From Desulfovibrio sp. JY (GTDB lineage: Bacteria; Desulfobacterota; Desulfovibrionia; Desulfovibrionales; Desulfovibrionaceae): DNA of 64,000 nucleotides. The notes below the pieces were generated by a model. That model saw only the letters and a program-made list of their open reading frames with translations. It had not been told where the DNA came from and searched no databases. Within the stretch, counting starts at the first letter, position 1, and every line of letters begins with the position of its first letter. Below are positions 48,742-63,033 of the stretch, piece by piece. The translations under genes and the position numbers were made by a program. Location of the stretch: NCBI GenBank assembly GCA_021730285.1, contig CP082962.1:3224001-3288000 (forward strand), read 5' to 3'.

Positions 48742-50199
48742 TTAGGCCACGTCCCACTGCGGCCCGGCGGGCGTGTCCATGACCGTGACGCCAAGGCCGG
48801 TCAATTCGTCGCGGATGGCGTCGGAGCGGGCGAAGTCCTTGGCCTTGCGCGCGTCCTGGCGCTCGGCCACGAGGGCATCCACCCGGGCCGGGTCGATGCC
48901 CAGGCGCGCGGCGCGGCAGGTTTTGAGTTCGCCGAGGAACTCCTGGCTGTCCCGGCCGCACACGCCGAGAATGATTGACCAGGTCTCGAAATCCGTGAGA
49001 ATGCGCCGCACGATGTCGGCCGTTTCGGCGCTCTTGGCCAAGGTCTTGTCTTCCATGAGCCGCCCGGCCAGCCGCACCGCGCCGAACACATGGCCCAGGG
49101 CCTGGGCCGTATTGAGATCGTCGTCCATGGCAGCGGTGAAGCCCTGTTCGTGCCTGGCCAGCTCCTCGGCGATTTCGGCCGGCAGCTTGGTCCCCGACCA
49201 TTTGGCCCGGGTCAGCGCCTGCTCCATTTGCGCCTTGGCCGCGTAGAGGCGTTTGATGCCTTTTTCCGCTTCGTCCAAGGCCTGGTCGGAATAGTCCAGC
49301 GGGCTTCTGTAGTGGGAGGAGACAAGGAAAAAGCGCAGCACTTCCGGCAGGTAGCGCTTGTAGATGTCGCGGATGGTGATGAAGTTGCCAAGGGACTTGG
49401 ACATCTTCTCGGTATTGATGCGCACGAAGCCGTTGTGCACCCAGAAGCGGCAGAATTCCTTGCCTGTGGCCGCCTCGCTCTGGGCGATCTCGTTTTCGTG
49501 GTGCGGGAAGATGAGGTCCTGGCCGCCGCCGTGGATGTCGAAGGGAATCCCCAGGATCTTTTCGCTCATGACCGAGCATTCCAGGTGCCAGCCCGGCCGT
49601 CCCGGGCCAAACGGGCTTTCCCAGACCGGCTCGCCGGGTTTCGACGCCTTCCACAGGGCGAAATCGAGGGGGTCTTCCTTTTCGTCGCCCGGGGCGATCC
49701 GCGCGCCGGCGCGCATGTCGTCGATATCGCGGCCGGAAAGCTTGCCGTAGCCGTCAAAGGAGCGCACCCGGAAATAGACGTCCCCGGACGGGGTGCGGTA
49801 GGCGTGGCCCGTTTCGATCAGGCGCCCGGCCATGGCCGCCATGGCTTCCACGTACTCCGTGGCCCGGGGCTCGGCGTCGGCGCGCAGGATGCCGAGCTTG
49901 TCCATGTCCTCGTAAAAAGCGGCGATGTAGCGTTCGGCGATAGCCGCGCAGGTCGTGTTCTCGCTTCCGGCCTTCTTGATGATCTTGTCGTCCACGTCCG
50001 TGAAGTTGCGCACGAAGGTGACGTCGTAGCCCAGATGGCGCAGGTAGCGCACCAGCACGTCGAAAACCACCGACGAACGGGCGTGCCCGATGTGGCACAG
50101 GTCATAGGCGGTGATGCCGCAGACGTACATGGCCACCTTGCCCGGGTGAAGCGGGGTAAAGGGCTCCTTGGCCCGGGCCATGGTGTTGAAAAGCTGCAT
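48742..50199 (-). CDS. cysS: Cysteinyl-tRNA synthetase
   Basis: This class I synthetase charges tRNA-Cys. It has the zinc-binding Cys27 (YVCGITAYD), HIGH at residues 36-39 (CHIGHARSS), the second zinc cysteine in GWHLECSVM, zinc-binding His/Glu in FPHHENE, and KMSKS (INTEKMSKSLGNF). The C-terminal anticodon-side tail reads AERQDARKAKDFARSDAIRDELTGLG. The length of 485 residues is normal. The start at 50199 is supported by GGAGG. It serves as an internal reference for the degenerate copy fused to cysteine synthase at 60730-63033. Confidence 0.96.
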   Translation of the reverse strand: MQLFNTMARAKEPFTPLHPGKVAMYVCGITAYDLCHIGHARSSVVFDVLVRYLRHLGYDVTFVRNFTDVDDKIIKKAGSENTTCAAIAERYIAAFYEDMDKLGILRADAEPRATEYVEAMAAMAGRLIETGHAYRTPSGDVYFRVRSFDGYGKLSGRDIDDMRAGARIAPGDEKEDPLDFALWKASKPGEPVWESPFGPGRPGWHLECSVMSEKILGIPFDIHGGGQDLIFPHHENEIAQSEAATGKEFCRFWVHNGFVRINTEKMSKSLGNFITIRDIYKRYLPEVLRFFLVSSHYRSPLDYSDQALDEAEKGIKRLYAAKAQMEQALTRAKWSGTKLPAEIAEELARHEQGFTAAMDDDLNTAQALGHVFGAVRLAGRLMEDKTLAKSAETADIVRRILTDFETWSIILGVCGRDSQEFLGELKTCRAARLGIDPARVDALVAERQDARKAKDFARSDAIRDELTGLGVTVMDTPAGPQWDVA

Positions 50200-55593: not shown

Positions 55594-56626
55594 CCTGCTT
55601 ACACACAATCATCAGCTAATTGTCAGCGGTCATTGTTTTGTGTATTTTCTGGGGGTTGGAGGCGCTGGATATGGCAAGAAACATTGTGCAATTCCAGAAG
55701 GGTATGAGCGAAGATGCGTTTGAGGCGCAATTCGGCACCGAGGAGAAATGCTGGGCACACCTCGTGCAATGGCGTTGGCCCGAAGGATTCGTTTGTCCAA
55801 TTTGCGGCAGGGATAAGTACTCGCTGCTTATTGTTGGCAGGCGACGGCTCTTTCAGTGCTCACATTGCCGTACGCAGACTTCGGTGACCGCTGGCACAAT
55901 CTTCGCTTCCACCAAAGTTCCCCTCAAGAAGTGGTTCCGCGCCATTTATCACCTCACTCAAAGCAAGGGCGGCATCTCCAGTGTCGAATTAGCCCGCAGA
56001 CTTGGTGTCACGCAAACGACGGCCTGGAAAATGTCTCACAAGCTGATGCAGGTCATGCTCGAACGTGAACACCAGCAACGTCTCACCGGCCGCGTAGAGA
56101 TGGACGATGCTTACCTTGGCGGTAAACGACGTGGTGGGAAACGTGGACGTGGTGCCCCAGGAAAAATTCCGTTTATTGCGGCAGTTGAAACGACAAAAAG
56201 TGGACAACCACACAAGATGAAGCTGTGCCGAGTCAAAGGTTTTCGGCGTAATGAGGTGCAGCGGGCATCTCAGAAAATCTTGCGTTCCGGGACATTGGTG
56301 GTGACGGACCGGTTGCCATGTTTTTCCGAGGTCCAGGCTGCGGGCTGTCGGCACGAACCCGTTCAAGACAGTGGCCGCAAGGCTGTGCAGGACTCAGTAT
56401 TTAAGTGGGTCAACACCATGCTTGGCAATGTGAAGTCAGCATTATTGGGAACATATCGTGCCGTGAGAGGCAAACATGTGTCGCGCTATCTGGCCTCGTT
56501 CGGATATCGATTCAATCGCCGTTATGACTTGGCGACAATGCTCACGCGGTTGGCCTGGGTCTCCTTGCGGACGCCGCCCATGCCTTACAGACTGCTCAAA
56601 CTGGCTGAGGATTGTGCGTAACCAGG
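55594..56626 (+). mobile_element. IS1595-family insertion sequence, complete (1033 bp)
   Basis: Both ends are visible. The left end CCTGCTTACACACAATC and the right end, read on the minus strand, CCTGGTTACGCACAATC are imperfect inverted repeats that extend for about 24 bases with few mismatches. The same 8-base sequence AACTTTTT lies immediately outside each end (55586-55593 and 56627-56634), as expected for the 8-bp duplication of this family. The transposase is intact, and its stop codon lies in the right repeat. Identical duplications and an intact gene suggest a recent insertion. Confidence 0.9.
55671..56621 (+). CDS. IS1595-family (ISXO2-like) transposase
   Basis: The 316-residue transposase has an N-terminal zinc ribbon (FVCPICGRDKYSLL and FQCSHCRTQTSVTAGTIF), the helix-turn-helix GGISSVELARRLGVTQTTAWKMSHKLMQVM, and an ISXO2-type DDE-like domain (VEMDDAYLGGKRRGGKRGRG; VVTDRLPCF; GTYRAVRGKHVSRYLASFGYRFNRRYDL). 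All motifs are whole, so it is probably active. I chose the ATG at 55671; the frame opens earlier at TTG 55620 inside the IS end. Base composition is lower in GC than its neighbours. Confidence 0.9.
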   Translation: MARNIVQFQKGMSEDAFEAQFGTEEKCWAHLVQWRWPEGFVCPICGRDKYSLLIVGRRRLFQCSHCRTQTSVTAGTIFASTKVPLKKWFRAIYHLTQSKGGISSVELARRLGVTQTTAWKMSHKLMQVMLEREHQQRLTGRVEMDDAYLGGKRRGGKRGRGAPGKIPFIAAVETTKSGQPHKMKLCRVKGFRRNEVQRASQKILRSGTLVVTDRLPCFSEVQAAGCRHEPVQDSGRKAVQDSVFKWVNTMLGNVKSALLGTYRAVRGKHVSRYLASFGYRFNRRYDLATMLTRLAWVSLRTPPMPYRLLKLAEDCA

Positions 56627-60607: not shown

Positions 60608-60729
60608 GACGTCGTCCTTGGATGGGATGCCGTAAGCGAAGCAATAATCCTGCCACTCTTGCCGGTTGGCCGTTTTTTGCCTACCACGTTGCCAGCCGGA
60701 CAGGTCCGGTCCCAATCCATGAGGCAGCC

Positions 60730-63033
60730 ATGATCCACGACAATGTTCTTTCCTTGGTGGGCAAGACTCCGCTTGTGCGCATGACGCGCCTTTGTTTAAA
60801 CCCCGCAGTGACGCTTGTGGCCAAGGTGGAGATGCGCAATCCCGGCGGTTCGATCAAGGACCGGGTGGGCCTGGCCATGATCGAGGCGGCCGAACGTTCG
60901 GGGGACTTGAAGCCCGGGCGCACGCTTATCGAGGCTACTTCGGGCAACACCGGCATCGGCTTGGCCATGGTCTGTGCTGTAAAAGGTTATAAACTCAAAC
61001 TCCTCATGCCGGCTTCGGCCTCGGAGGAGCGCAAGCGCATCCTGCGCGCCTACGGCGCGGAAATCGTGCTCACCCCGGGCAACCTGGGGACGGACGGGGC
61101 CATCGAGGAAGCGTATCGGCTCGCCCGCGAGGAGCCGGAAACCTACGTCCTCATGGACCAGTTCAACAATCCGGCCAGCATCGAGGCGCATTACAATTCG
61201 ACGGCGGTGGAGATTTTCGAGGAAACCGGGGGCGCGGTCACCCATGTCGTGGTGGCGCTCGGCACTTCGGGCACGGCCATGGGGCTGGTCAAAAAACTGA
61301 AGGAACTGAAGCCCTCCGTCAAAGTCGTGGCGGTCGAGCCCCATCCCGGCCACAAGATCCAGGGGCTCAAGAACATGCAAGAGTCCTACCCGCCGGGGAT
61401 TTTCGACAAGCACGCCCTGGACGCCATCGAGCCGGTGGAGGACGAGGACGCCTTTGCCATGGCCCGGCGGCTGGCCCGGGACGAAGGCCTGCTTGTGGGC
61501 ATGAGCGGTGGGGCGGCCATGGCCGTTGCCGTGGACCTGTCCGGCAGGCTCGACTCGGGACTGGTGGTCGCCATCCTGCCGGACGGCGGCGAGCGCTATC
61601 TTTCCACCACGCTTTTCGCCTCGCCCGAGAAAAAGGGTGTGGCGCTTTCCGGCGCGGGCGCGGCCGAGCCGGTCTATCTCGATCCGGCCGGGGCCACACC
61701 CGGGCTCTTCACGTTCGGTCCGCCCCTGGCCTCGCCCGGCGACCTGGACGCCTGGCGACGGGTGGTGACCCTCGACGTTTTGCGGCGGACCCTGGCCCGG
61801 GGCGGCGCTCGGCCTGTCCTGGCCGTGGGCCTGGCCGACCTGGAGGACCGGTGCCTCGACGCGTCGCGCGCGGCCGGCGTCAAATGCCGCGAATTCGCGG
61901 TCAAGGCCCGGGAACAGGTGGCGGCCCGCGCCGCCGCCCTCGGCGTGGCCGACGCCCGCTTCCCCCTGGCCGGCGAGGCCCTCGACGAGGCCCTGGCCAT
62001 GACGCGGAAGCTTTTGAGCAAGGGCCTTGCCTACGAGAAATTGCGCAGTGTCTATTTCGACGTGGCCCGCGACAAGGCGTATGGCGGACTGCTCGGCACG
62101 GACATGACCAAGCTGGCCCTTGGCAAGACCGTGGACCTGCTGGCCTATGCCAAGGACAATCCCCAGGATTTCACGCTGCTCAAACGTGTGAGCCTCAAGG
62201 ACCTCAAGGCCGGCGACGCCTTGTCCACGCCCTGGGGCAATGTGCGGCCGAGCTGGTTTCTCCAGATGGCGGCGGCGGCGGTCAAGGCGCTTCCCGCCGT
62301 GACCGTTGTGCTGACCGACGAGGACAAGACCTTTCCGCATCTGGAAAATCTGCGGGCCATCTGGTCGGTTGGGGCGGGTTTTTCCCCGGCGGCCTGGCTG
62401 GTCGGCGGGCGGGTGGCCGGCCGGGAGGGCGAGGAAGCCGGTACGGCCGATCTGGCCGATTTGCTGGCCCTTGGCGTCCATCCCCTGGCCGTTCGGGCTT
62501 GGCTGCTTTCGGTCGGCTACCGCAAGCCGCTTTGCGCCGTGCCGGAATCGCTTCGGATGTGGGAGAAAAACCGCAACCGGGTGCAGGAGCTGGCCGCCAA
62601 TCTCGGGTTGGTCGCGGGCAGCCAGGGCAACGCCTCGGACGCGGTCGTGACCGAAGCCGAGAAACTGACCCAGTCCCTGGACACGGCCGTGGCCGACGAT
62701 CTGGCCGTTTTCCAGTTCTGGCCCCAGCTGTTCGCGTTTTGCCGGTTCGCCAACGGGCTCATTGCCGCCGGGTCCCTGACCCCGGCCGATGCCGCGCGCC
62801 TGGGCGGCGCGCTCAGTGCGGCCGACGGCGTGCTGGGGCTGCTCGATCCCGCCTGCCTGCCGGTCGCCCCGCGCCAGTGGCCCGAACCGGTGCCCAAGCT
62901 GGTCGCGGCCCGGGAACAGGCGCGTCGGGACAAGGATTTCACCAGGGCCGACGCCATTCGGGCGGATATCGAGGGCCTTGGCTACCGGGTCGAGGATGCG
63001 TTAGGCGGGGTGCGGCTTTTCCCGAGGAGCTGA
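60730..63033 (+). CDS. cysK: Cysteine synthase fused to a catalytically degenerate cysteinyl-tRNA synthetase
   Basis: Residues 1-300 are a complete PLP cysteine synthase (NPGGSIKDR with Lys43, TSGNTG at 70-75, GTSGTAMG, LPDGGERYLST). Residues ~325-767 align end to end with the CysRS encoded at 48742-50199. Examples are KLLSKGLAYEKLRSVYFDVARDKAYGGL against RLIETGHAYRTPSGDVYFRVRSFDGYGKL, NPQDFTLLKR against DPLDFALWKA, RPSWFLQMA against RPGWHLECS, TFPHLEN against IFPHHEN, and AREQARRDKDFTRADAIRADIEGLGY against ERQDARKAKDFARSDAIRDELTGLGV. The catalytic residues are gone: HIGH reads DLDA (338-341), KMSKS reads about EEAGT, and three of four zinc ligands are replaced. The synthetase part cannot activate cysteine and probably has a binding or regulatory role (inference). 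Confidence 0.9.
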   Translation: MIHDNVLSLVGKTPLVRMTRLCLNPAVTLVAKVEMRNPGGSIKDRVGLAMIEAAERSGDLKPGRTLIEATSGNTGIGLAMVCAVKGYKLKLLMPASASEERKRILRAYGAEIVLTPGNLGTDGAIEEAYRLAREEPETYVLMDQFNNPASIEAHYNSTAVEIFEETGGAVTHVVVALGTSGTAMGLVKKLKELKPSVKVVAVEPHPGHKIQGLKNMQESYPPGIFDKHALDAIEPVEDEDAFAMARRLARDEGLLVGMSGGAAMAVAVDLSGRLDSGLVVAILPDGGERYLSTTLFASPEKKGVALSGAGAAEPVYLDPAGATPGLFTFGPPLASPGDLDAWRRVVTLDVLRRTLARGGARPVLAVGLADLEDRCLDASRAAGVKCREFAVKAREQVAARAAALGVADARFPLAGEALDEALAMTRKLLSKGLAYEKLRSVYFDVARDKAYGGLLGTDMTKLALGKTVDLLAYAKDNPQDFTLLKRVSLKDLKAGDALSTPWGNVRPSWFLQMAAAAVKALPAVTVVLTDEDKTFPHLENLRAIWSVGAGFSPAAWLVGGRVAGREGEEAGTADLADLLALGVHPLAVRAWLLSVGYRKPLCAVPESLRMWEKNRNRVQELAANLGLVAGSQGNASDAVVTEAEKLTQSLDTAVADDLAVFQFWPQLFAFCRFANGLIAAGSLTPADAARLGGALSAADGVLGLLDPACLPVAPRQWPEPVPKLVAAREQARRDKDFTRADAIRADIEGLGYRVEDALGGVRLFPRS

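Follow-up and report, generated by a model that had tools for sequence, protein, structure and literature searches.

What does a cysteine synthase do with the body of a cysteinyl-tRNA synthetase (CysRS) on its own chain, when that body has lost the motifs for charging tRNA? The question is raised by a gene in a 64,000-nucleotide stretch of Desulfovibrio sp. JY (contig CP082962.1, positions 3,224,001 to 3,288,000), referred to as the window, in which positions are counted from the first letter. An in-frame open reading frame (ORF) of 767 amino acids begins with ATG at 60730 and its stop codon ends at 63033 (60730..63033; all features lie on the forward strand unless stated otherwise). ORFs were taken from stop to stop, with no gene caller, and a second in-frame ATG is located upstream, at 60622. 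Through Pfam and NCBIfam matches the product has been identified as a fusion of a cysteine synthase with a CysRS body that is almost complete in length.

The PALP domain of Pfam covers residues 8-285 (E 1.5e-69), and the NCBIfam model of CysK/CysM enzymes (cysKM, TIGR01136) is passed with 355.2 bits against a cut-off of 344.15; the cysteine synthase domain extends over residues 7-296 (60748..61617). Behind it, the Pfam domains tRNA-synt_1e (residues 342-546, 79.6 bits, cut-off 27) and CysS_C (residues 718-756, 25.0 bits, cut-off 23) have been found. The NCBIfam model cysS (TIGR00435) aligns its positions 40-462, of 466 in all, with residues 342-762 (E 1.6e-29), at a score of 103.4 bits, far under the family cut-off of 340. 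When the C-terminal 443 amino acids (residues 325-767) are compared alone with solved structures, they find CysRS 8qhp (E 1.1e-24) and the E. coli enzyme 1li5 (E 1.6e-17). These matches start at about CysRS residue 39 and run to the C-terminal part; the first 40 CysRS residues, including C28 and HIGH, lie outside the profile matches and have been located by multiple alignment. Profile matches and substitution rates delimit a CysRS-like core at residues 326-560 (61705..62409), and Pfam, structure matches and conservation place an anticodon-binding subdomain at residues 716-760 (62875..63009). A chance similarity to CysRS is ruled out by the Pfam, NCBIfam and structure matches. The same genome encodes a canonical CysRS in the window (48742..50199, reverse strand, start codon picked by hand), with HIGH, KMSKS and zinc ligands intact.

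The losses in the fused body have been defined by alignment. The HIGH position reads DLDA at residues 338-341 (61741..61752). Around residues 564-572, which read GREGEEAGT (62419..62445), the KMSKS loop is missing or has been exchanged for other sequence. Three of the four zinc ligands are lost: in E. coli numbering, C28 is replaced by Phe329 (61714..61716), C209 by Met513 (62266..62268) and E238 by Leu541 (62350..62352). The remaining ligand, H234, is kept as His537 (62338..62340), and this position is histidine in 167 of 170 fusions. The comparison set behind this and the following counts consists of 170 distinct fusion C-termini and 21 true CysRSs. The fusions were drawn from 201 fusion ORFs, leaving out identical copies, X-rich C-termini and the truncated L039, whose frame is broken; 72 come from a scan of species genomes, 30 from searches of the window's family and 68 from a sample of the phylum. 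Loci of the phylum sample were taken for their top scores, with one or a few more chosen by hand for each family, which makes the draw non-random. Thinned to below 90 percent identity, the 170 become 154.

KMSKS is present in none of the 170 fusions and KMSRS in 20, while both HIGH histidines occur in one; a plain text search gives the same motif counts, with all 21 true CysRSs positive. The single fusion with both histidines (L162, genome G422) reads HLGH, and its KMSKS site reads RTSKA. All four zinc ligands are retained in 79 fusions and at most one in 64. Several lineages combine HLGL or HLGN with KMSRS, and in these the GGGxD motif has mostly turned into TSGxD. To judge from the alignment, motif loss is graded across the family and is most complete in the Desulfovibrionales.

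A first description of the window, the sequence-only reading, had claimed a CysRS body beyond residue 325 that keeps its insertion, tail and FPH-EN turn and has lost HIGH, KMSKS and three zinc ligands. Profile, structure and alignment comparisons bear out each of these points. Its further statement that all chemistry has been lost is too broad for the family, given the 79 complete zinc sites and the lineages with HLGL or HLGN and KMSRS. The degeneration that it proposed to look for in homologues is general, since none of the 170 has both motifs intact, but its degree varies by lineage. Homologues with both HIGH and KMSKS retained, which it had named as a sign of local decay here, are absent from the 170 fusions, and a pseudogene or a local decay of this gene is ruled out by purifying selection and wide spread.

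The residues that recognise the tRNA have had a different fate. At the anticodon end R728, R732, F737, D741, R744 and D756 (62911..62997) align with E. coli R423, R427, W432, D436, R439 and D451. Among these, R439 and D451 are presumed to be further anticodon-reading residues. The other four contact G34 in the E. coli CysRS-tRNA-Cys structure 1u0b (PMC12684709). Position 423 is arginine, 432 aromatic, 436 aspartate and 439 arginine in all 170 fusions; D451 is kept in 169 and R427 in 159, with lysine in nine more. All six are present together in 167 of the 170 fusions, and in 151 of the 154 that thinning leaves, both where the zinc site is complete (79 of 79) and where at most one ligand is left (61 of 64). 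Within the 45-residue subdomain they rank 1, 2, 3, 4, 7 and 13 in conservation, and five of the six belong to the top fifth of its columns by conservation (hypergeometric p 6e-4; R439 and D451 entered this set as background, not from the cited structure). Columns that are invariant in the 21 true CysRSs are retained in the fusions at a mean of 0.89 for the only 7 such columns of the anticodon domain, 0.57 for the 96 of the catalytic part and 0.46 for the 22 of the helical part, although 19 of the 21 come from the window's own family and their invariance is thereby overstated.

The core is under selection as well. In five pairs within the genus, the ratio of nonsynonymous to synonymous substitution (dN/dS) is 0.03-0.29 for the CysRS-like core and 0.10-0.16 for PALP; the two are of the same order, the core being lower in one pair and higher in four. 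Ten core residues are foreign to true CysRSs, namely P331, R344, S440, T467, D469, Y473, R486, L492, K493 and G495, and the last eight of these lie in a strongly conserved stretch at residues 438-495 (62041..62214). A ligand is probably bound by the core in zinc-keeping and zinc-less members alike.

The synthase half carries its own indications of an unusual substrate. Lys43 in GGSIKDR (60856..60858), invariant in 68 aligned fusions, is presumed, as in the O-acetylserine sulfhydrylase family, to be the lysine that binds pyridoxal phosphate (PLP). The TSGNTG loop, which binds the free carboxylate of the substrate, is invariant or nearly so in the same 68. The substrate loop of the fusions follows the pattern EP..GH.IQGLKNM.ES, whereas CysE-linked CysKs, including the one in the window's genome, have a longer loop ending in GIGAGF. 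Lys214 in GLKNM (61369..61371), a lysine in all 79 fusion PALP domains, aligns with the arginine of LRNM in the CysM of M. tuberculosis, an O-phosphoserine sulfhydrylase (OPSS). This arginine is Arg220, by counting in 3dwi; a basic residue at this position is a feature of OPSS, and Lys214 may take the role of the arginine. Residues 190-246 have this CysM as their top solved match, a weak one (E 8e-4). The name CysM leaves the substrate unsettled, because the CysM of C. jejuni uses O-acetylserine only (PMC9855970).

Gene content points the same way. It has been surveyed in 47 fusion and 33 non-fusion genomes, chosen by hand at about one per family, with thresholds of 1e-55 for CysK and 1e-20 for CysE. 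In 20 of the 47 fusion genomes no CysK/CysM besides the fusion was found, and exactly the same 20 lack CysE, so that the fusion there must act independently of any CysE in the family that was searched. The remaining 27 have both CysK and CysE, often adjoining; in the window's genome CysK is at G000:C1:3087124, beside CysE at 3088437. Phosphoglycerate dehydrogenase (PGDH, TIGR01327) and SepCysS were searched in 28 of the surveyed genomes. PGDH is over the cut-off in all 20 CysE-less fusion genomes, and O-phosphoserine is therefore plausibly at hand. In the PALP tree, stand-alone GLKN/GLKH synthases group with the fusions, apart from the long-loop type (support 99). The fusion synthase half is probably CysE-independent and O-phosphoserine-using. 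Six genomes with neither fusion nor CysE (G114, G151, G186, G214, G335 and G356; L224-L229) have a stand-alone synthase that reads GLKHM in the Lys214 region, and these form a close group of their own; they are perhaps further CysE-independent cysteine synthases.

The fusion is widespread in the phylum. In the window's family a fusion-type match is present in 52 of 99 genomes (hand count), most of the others having a CysRS-level match only and six none. Among 395 Desulfobacterota genomes at least 148 carry it, in 47 of 107 family codes (hand count); the 148 are genomes with an open frame of 700 amino acids or more, some of them not read as sequence. A separate CysRS is the rule in fusion genomes, since all but five of the 148 have two or more CysRS-type matches; those five are 62-94 percent complete. 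From a scan of 84,980 species genomes the best 80 loci were taken, which leaves room for copies elsewhere. By title these belong to Desulfobacterota or bear broad labels (Proteobacteria, Pseudomonadota, Deltaproteobacteria), except for one metagenome-assembled genome of a planctomycete, titled uncultured Pirellulales. Its fusion (L087) lies on a 370 kb contig, and its nearest neighbour in the tree of either domain is a Desulfarculaceae copy. The class was represented by 58 further genomes, none with a fusion at a cut of 1e-128, and the copy reflects either wrong binning of the contig or a single transfer. Among 72,556 plasmid records no fusion match has been found at 1e-30.

Trees of both domains were built by a quick method; thinning of the fusions at 62 percent identity left 79 rows, to which six true CysRSs were added for the CysRS domain. 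In the CysRS-domain tree every fusion falls on one side (support 100). The early branches carry HLGL, HLGN or NLGH, several of them with KMSRS or KMSVS. The Desulfovibrionales branch, with 31 rows and no intact KMSKS, is very long in this tree (1.49 changes per column), and the corresponding branch is short in the PALP tree (0.26). The tree motifs and branch lengths indicate a stepwise fading of the chemistry, during which the synthase kept a normal pace of evolution and the anticodon residues were preserved.

The mechanism that we favour is drawn by likeness to Gcn2, which binds uncharged tRNA, and to HisZ, which activates HisG. The CysRS paralogue on the synthase would no longer charge tRNA, at least in the lineage of the window, and would still dock tRNA-Cys through its anticodon domain. 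The amount or the charging state of tRNA-Cys would then set or position the synthase activity, and cysteine output would thereby be matched to demand in sulfide-filled cells. In the zinc-keeping lineages the core would probably also bind cysteine as a feedback signal; in the Desulfovibrionales, the window included, no zinc site is left, and it is the tRNA-reading end, together with a basic core that has been remodelled, that would still act. The link to tRNA-Cys is suggested because the catalytic residues have been lost while the tRNA-recognising ones stay. The chances are about even, in our estimate, that the protein combines a CysE-independent synthase with a non-charging pseudo-CysRS that binds tRNA-Cys and thus regulates or positions the synthase. 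The binding of tRNA-Cys, the sign and mechanism of the regulation and the O-phosphoserine substrate are the parts of it that we infer. More tentatively, the synthase could be gated on the same chain by tRNA-Cys, with the anticodon read by the dead synthetase domain. Such gating might, with the same reserve, let translation demand control cysteine synthesis directly, with neither a riboswitch nor a transcription factor in between, in a large part of the sulfate-reducing phylum. The sequence-only reading had proposed a selected, non-catalytic role, which fits a body without aminoacylation motifs that is widespread and under purifying selection. Its suggestion of tRNA-Cys sensing gains support, not named there, from near-invariant anticodon contacts beside lost catalytic residues. 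The CysE-independent type of the synthase half had escaped that reading.

Several observations weigh against the tRNA-gated synthase. In the five pairs within the genus dN/dS is higher for the anticodon subdomain as a whole (0.26-0.51) than for the core (0.03-0.29), so that a few anticodon positions are held rather than the whole subdomain. The core houses the majority of the 45 columns that rank highest in conservation, and given this conservation and the faster subdomain, the main function could lie elsewhere than at the anticodon end. The top fifth by conservation takes in three of the four G34 contacts named in the literature; position 432 is conserved only as an aromatic class, and the conserved arginines and aspartates could be structural. 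No shared operon, sulfur-related or other, surrounds the fusion among 122 loci, as far as the one or two members per neighbour cluster searched in Pfam tell. As for the substrate, the best solved matches of the whole synthase domain are ordinary O-acetylserine sulfhydrylases, above OPSS, and the position of the OPSS arginine holds a lysine. In the window's genome both CysE and a further CysK are present. The TIGR01327 cut-off for PGDH, which 25 others pass, is missed by the best matches of this genome (G000), G069 and G075; the serine route of these three Desulfovibrionaceae may differ. CysE is also absent from 8 of the 33 non-fusion genomes, and one of these eight (G108, no CysE at 1e-20) has only a long-loop synthase of the O-acetylserine type (L231, GIGDGF). 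Finally, six stand-alone LKN-type synthases (L232-L236, L238) are found in genomes with CysE.

Another possibility is that the CysRS-like body serves in allostery or assembly with a ligand other than tRNA, its anticodon residues persisting for fold stability. Its core residues R343, R344, S440, T467, D469, Y473, K475, R486, K493 and W509 would then bind a small anionic molecule or dock onto the synthase active site. In its favour, all ten fusion-specific residues lie in the core, as does the larger part of the 45 top-ranking columns, and the core has a dN/dS of PALP's order; the four zinc ligands of 79 fusions would permit cysteine to be bound. It is nonetheless somewhat doubtful, as conservation within the anticodon subdomain is focused on the tRNA-contact positions while the remainder drifts. 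That the domain is a vestige, or a purely structural appendage needed for the folding or the oligomer of the synthase, would suit the decay of the active-site motifs to differing states along the tree. About 45 near-invariant positions across 170 fusions, fusion-specific ones among them, make this unlikely, and stand-alone LKN-type synthases of the same phylum do without the domain. Slightly less probable still is that the zinc-keeping lineages with HLGN or HLGL and KMSRS continue to activate cysteine, as a second CysRS or an MshC-like ligase, the activity having been lost in the Desulfovibrionales and others. Several early-branching lineages do retain these motifs along with the zinc ligands, which would be explained in this way. 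Both HIGH histidines and KMSKS are however combined in none of the 170, GGGxD is mostly TSGxD in those very lineages, a separate CysRS is the rule and the window copy has no motifs left.

Two further explanations make the CysRS body a partner in the chemistry. In a tRNA-dependent cysteine synthesis, comparable to SepRS/SepCysS of methanogens, PALP would act on an aminoacyl-tRNA held by the pseudo-CysRS, and an OPSS-like synthase and an anticodon-retaining body are indeed present on one chain. The window nevertheless encodes a normal CysRS, the TSGNTG loop is conserved, and SepCysS is over the cut-off in none of the 28 genomes (three weak matches lie below it), which renders this route very improbable. 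A cysteine persulfide synthase, by the PLP-dependent side activity of CysRS, might be expected where a single chain unites a PLP enzyme with a CysRS body and the cells are rich in sulfide. Persulfide synthesis by CysRS is reported to need the KIIK and KMSK lysines (PMC10655014). All four lysines are present in no fusion of the 170, and the window copy has none; even among the true CysRSs only 8 of 21 keep all. This last explanation is scarcely credible, and tRNA-Cys-dependent control of the synthase remains the one that we prefer.

The genomic surroundings of the fusion vary. In the window its neighbour is a divergent MptE-like gene, and at other loci SurE, an HD-OB protein and thymidylate kinase are found. 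Eight loci of Desulfobulbales type (L092, L102, L105, L107, L108, L110, L112 and L194) have a DsrP-like gene of the NrfD family directly upstream on the same strand, with a gap of about 170 nt in L092, and most of them add ferredoxin-like genes resembling dsrO and dsrK (one member per cluster searched). Among the roles put forward in the sequence-only reading, the fusion might also keep the true CysRS close to where cysteine is made. The fusion and the true CysRS are about 10.5 kb apart in the window. A general linkage of the two has not been seen among four other genomes of the genus: they share one contig within about 12 kb only in G058, are far apart in G080 and G025, and are on different contigs in G097. 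No tRNA gene is present in the 64-kb window. An ORF at 55620-56621 (forward strand), between a ClpB-like gene and thiM/thiE-like genes, is presumably an IS1595-type transposase.

If the domain binds tRNA-Cys, the fusion would provide a direct link from translation demand to amino-acid synthesis in bulk sulfide producers, and it would help to explain how cysteine is made in the 20 of 47 fusion genomes in which no CysE was found. It would also correct the plain label of cysteine synthase. The D. vulgaris gene DVU0663 is presumably the fusion. This gene is labelled plain cysK and is raised in biofilms (PMC3431258). In the available part of a paper on the amino-acid pathways of bacteria, D. vulgaris among them, the fusion is not mentioned (PMC5764234). 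As far as the available text of the open-licence literature goes, no description of a synthase-CysRS fusion was found, nor of a repurposed synthetase that regulates a cysteine enzyme or is fused to a cysteine-forming one. The table of a review on synthetase paralogues has only CysRS* and MshC as CysRS entries (PMC9437257), and other synthetase-like proteins and SepRS/SepCysS are treated elsewhere (PMC2922099, PMC5424206).

Compared with CysRS (TIGR00435), the fusion has near-full-length homology, the insertion, the FPH-EN turn and an anticodon domain with its contact residues. It differs in the absence of HIGH and KMSKS, the loss of three of four zinc ligands, the attached synthase and a score below the family cut-off. 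CysRS* of Desulfobacterales (Mukai 2017 via PMC9437257) is likewise a CysRS paralogue and from the same phylum, but it is reported to be active, to charge SelC* and to have no anticodon domain, whereas the fusion keeps CysS_C (718-756) and here lacks the catalytic motifs. MshC, the mycothiol cysteine ligase, is a CysRS paralogue outside translation; in contrast to the fusion it is an active ligase, and its profile covers only fusion residues 346-655, with 46.9 bits against a cut-off of 485.1. On the synthase side, M. tuberculosis CysM/OPSS (3dwg, 3dki, 3dwi) has the same EP..G....L(R/K)NM loop, with arginine where the fusion has lysine, and no CysRS domain. Repurposed synthetases that regulate enzymes are already known in HisZ and Gcn2. 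HisZ is a HisRS paralogue without aminoacylation and belongs to class II. As a regulatory protein it activates an enzyme of an amino-acid pathway, ATP phosphoribosyltransferase (PMC10795190, PMC10998830); it is a separate subunit of the histidine pathway, whereas the fusion has a class I paralogue on the synthase chain itself, with anticodon residues kept. Gcn2, which the fusion would resemble, is a larger enzyme with a regulatory domain related to HisRS; this domain binds uncharged tRNA and thereby regulates the enzyme (PMC4335047). Gcn2 differs in being a eukaryotic protein kinase, not a biosynthetic enzyme.

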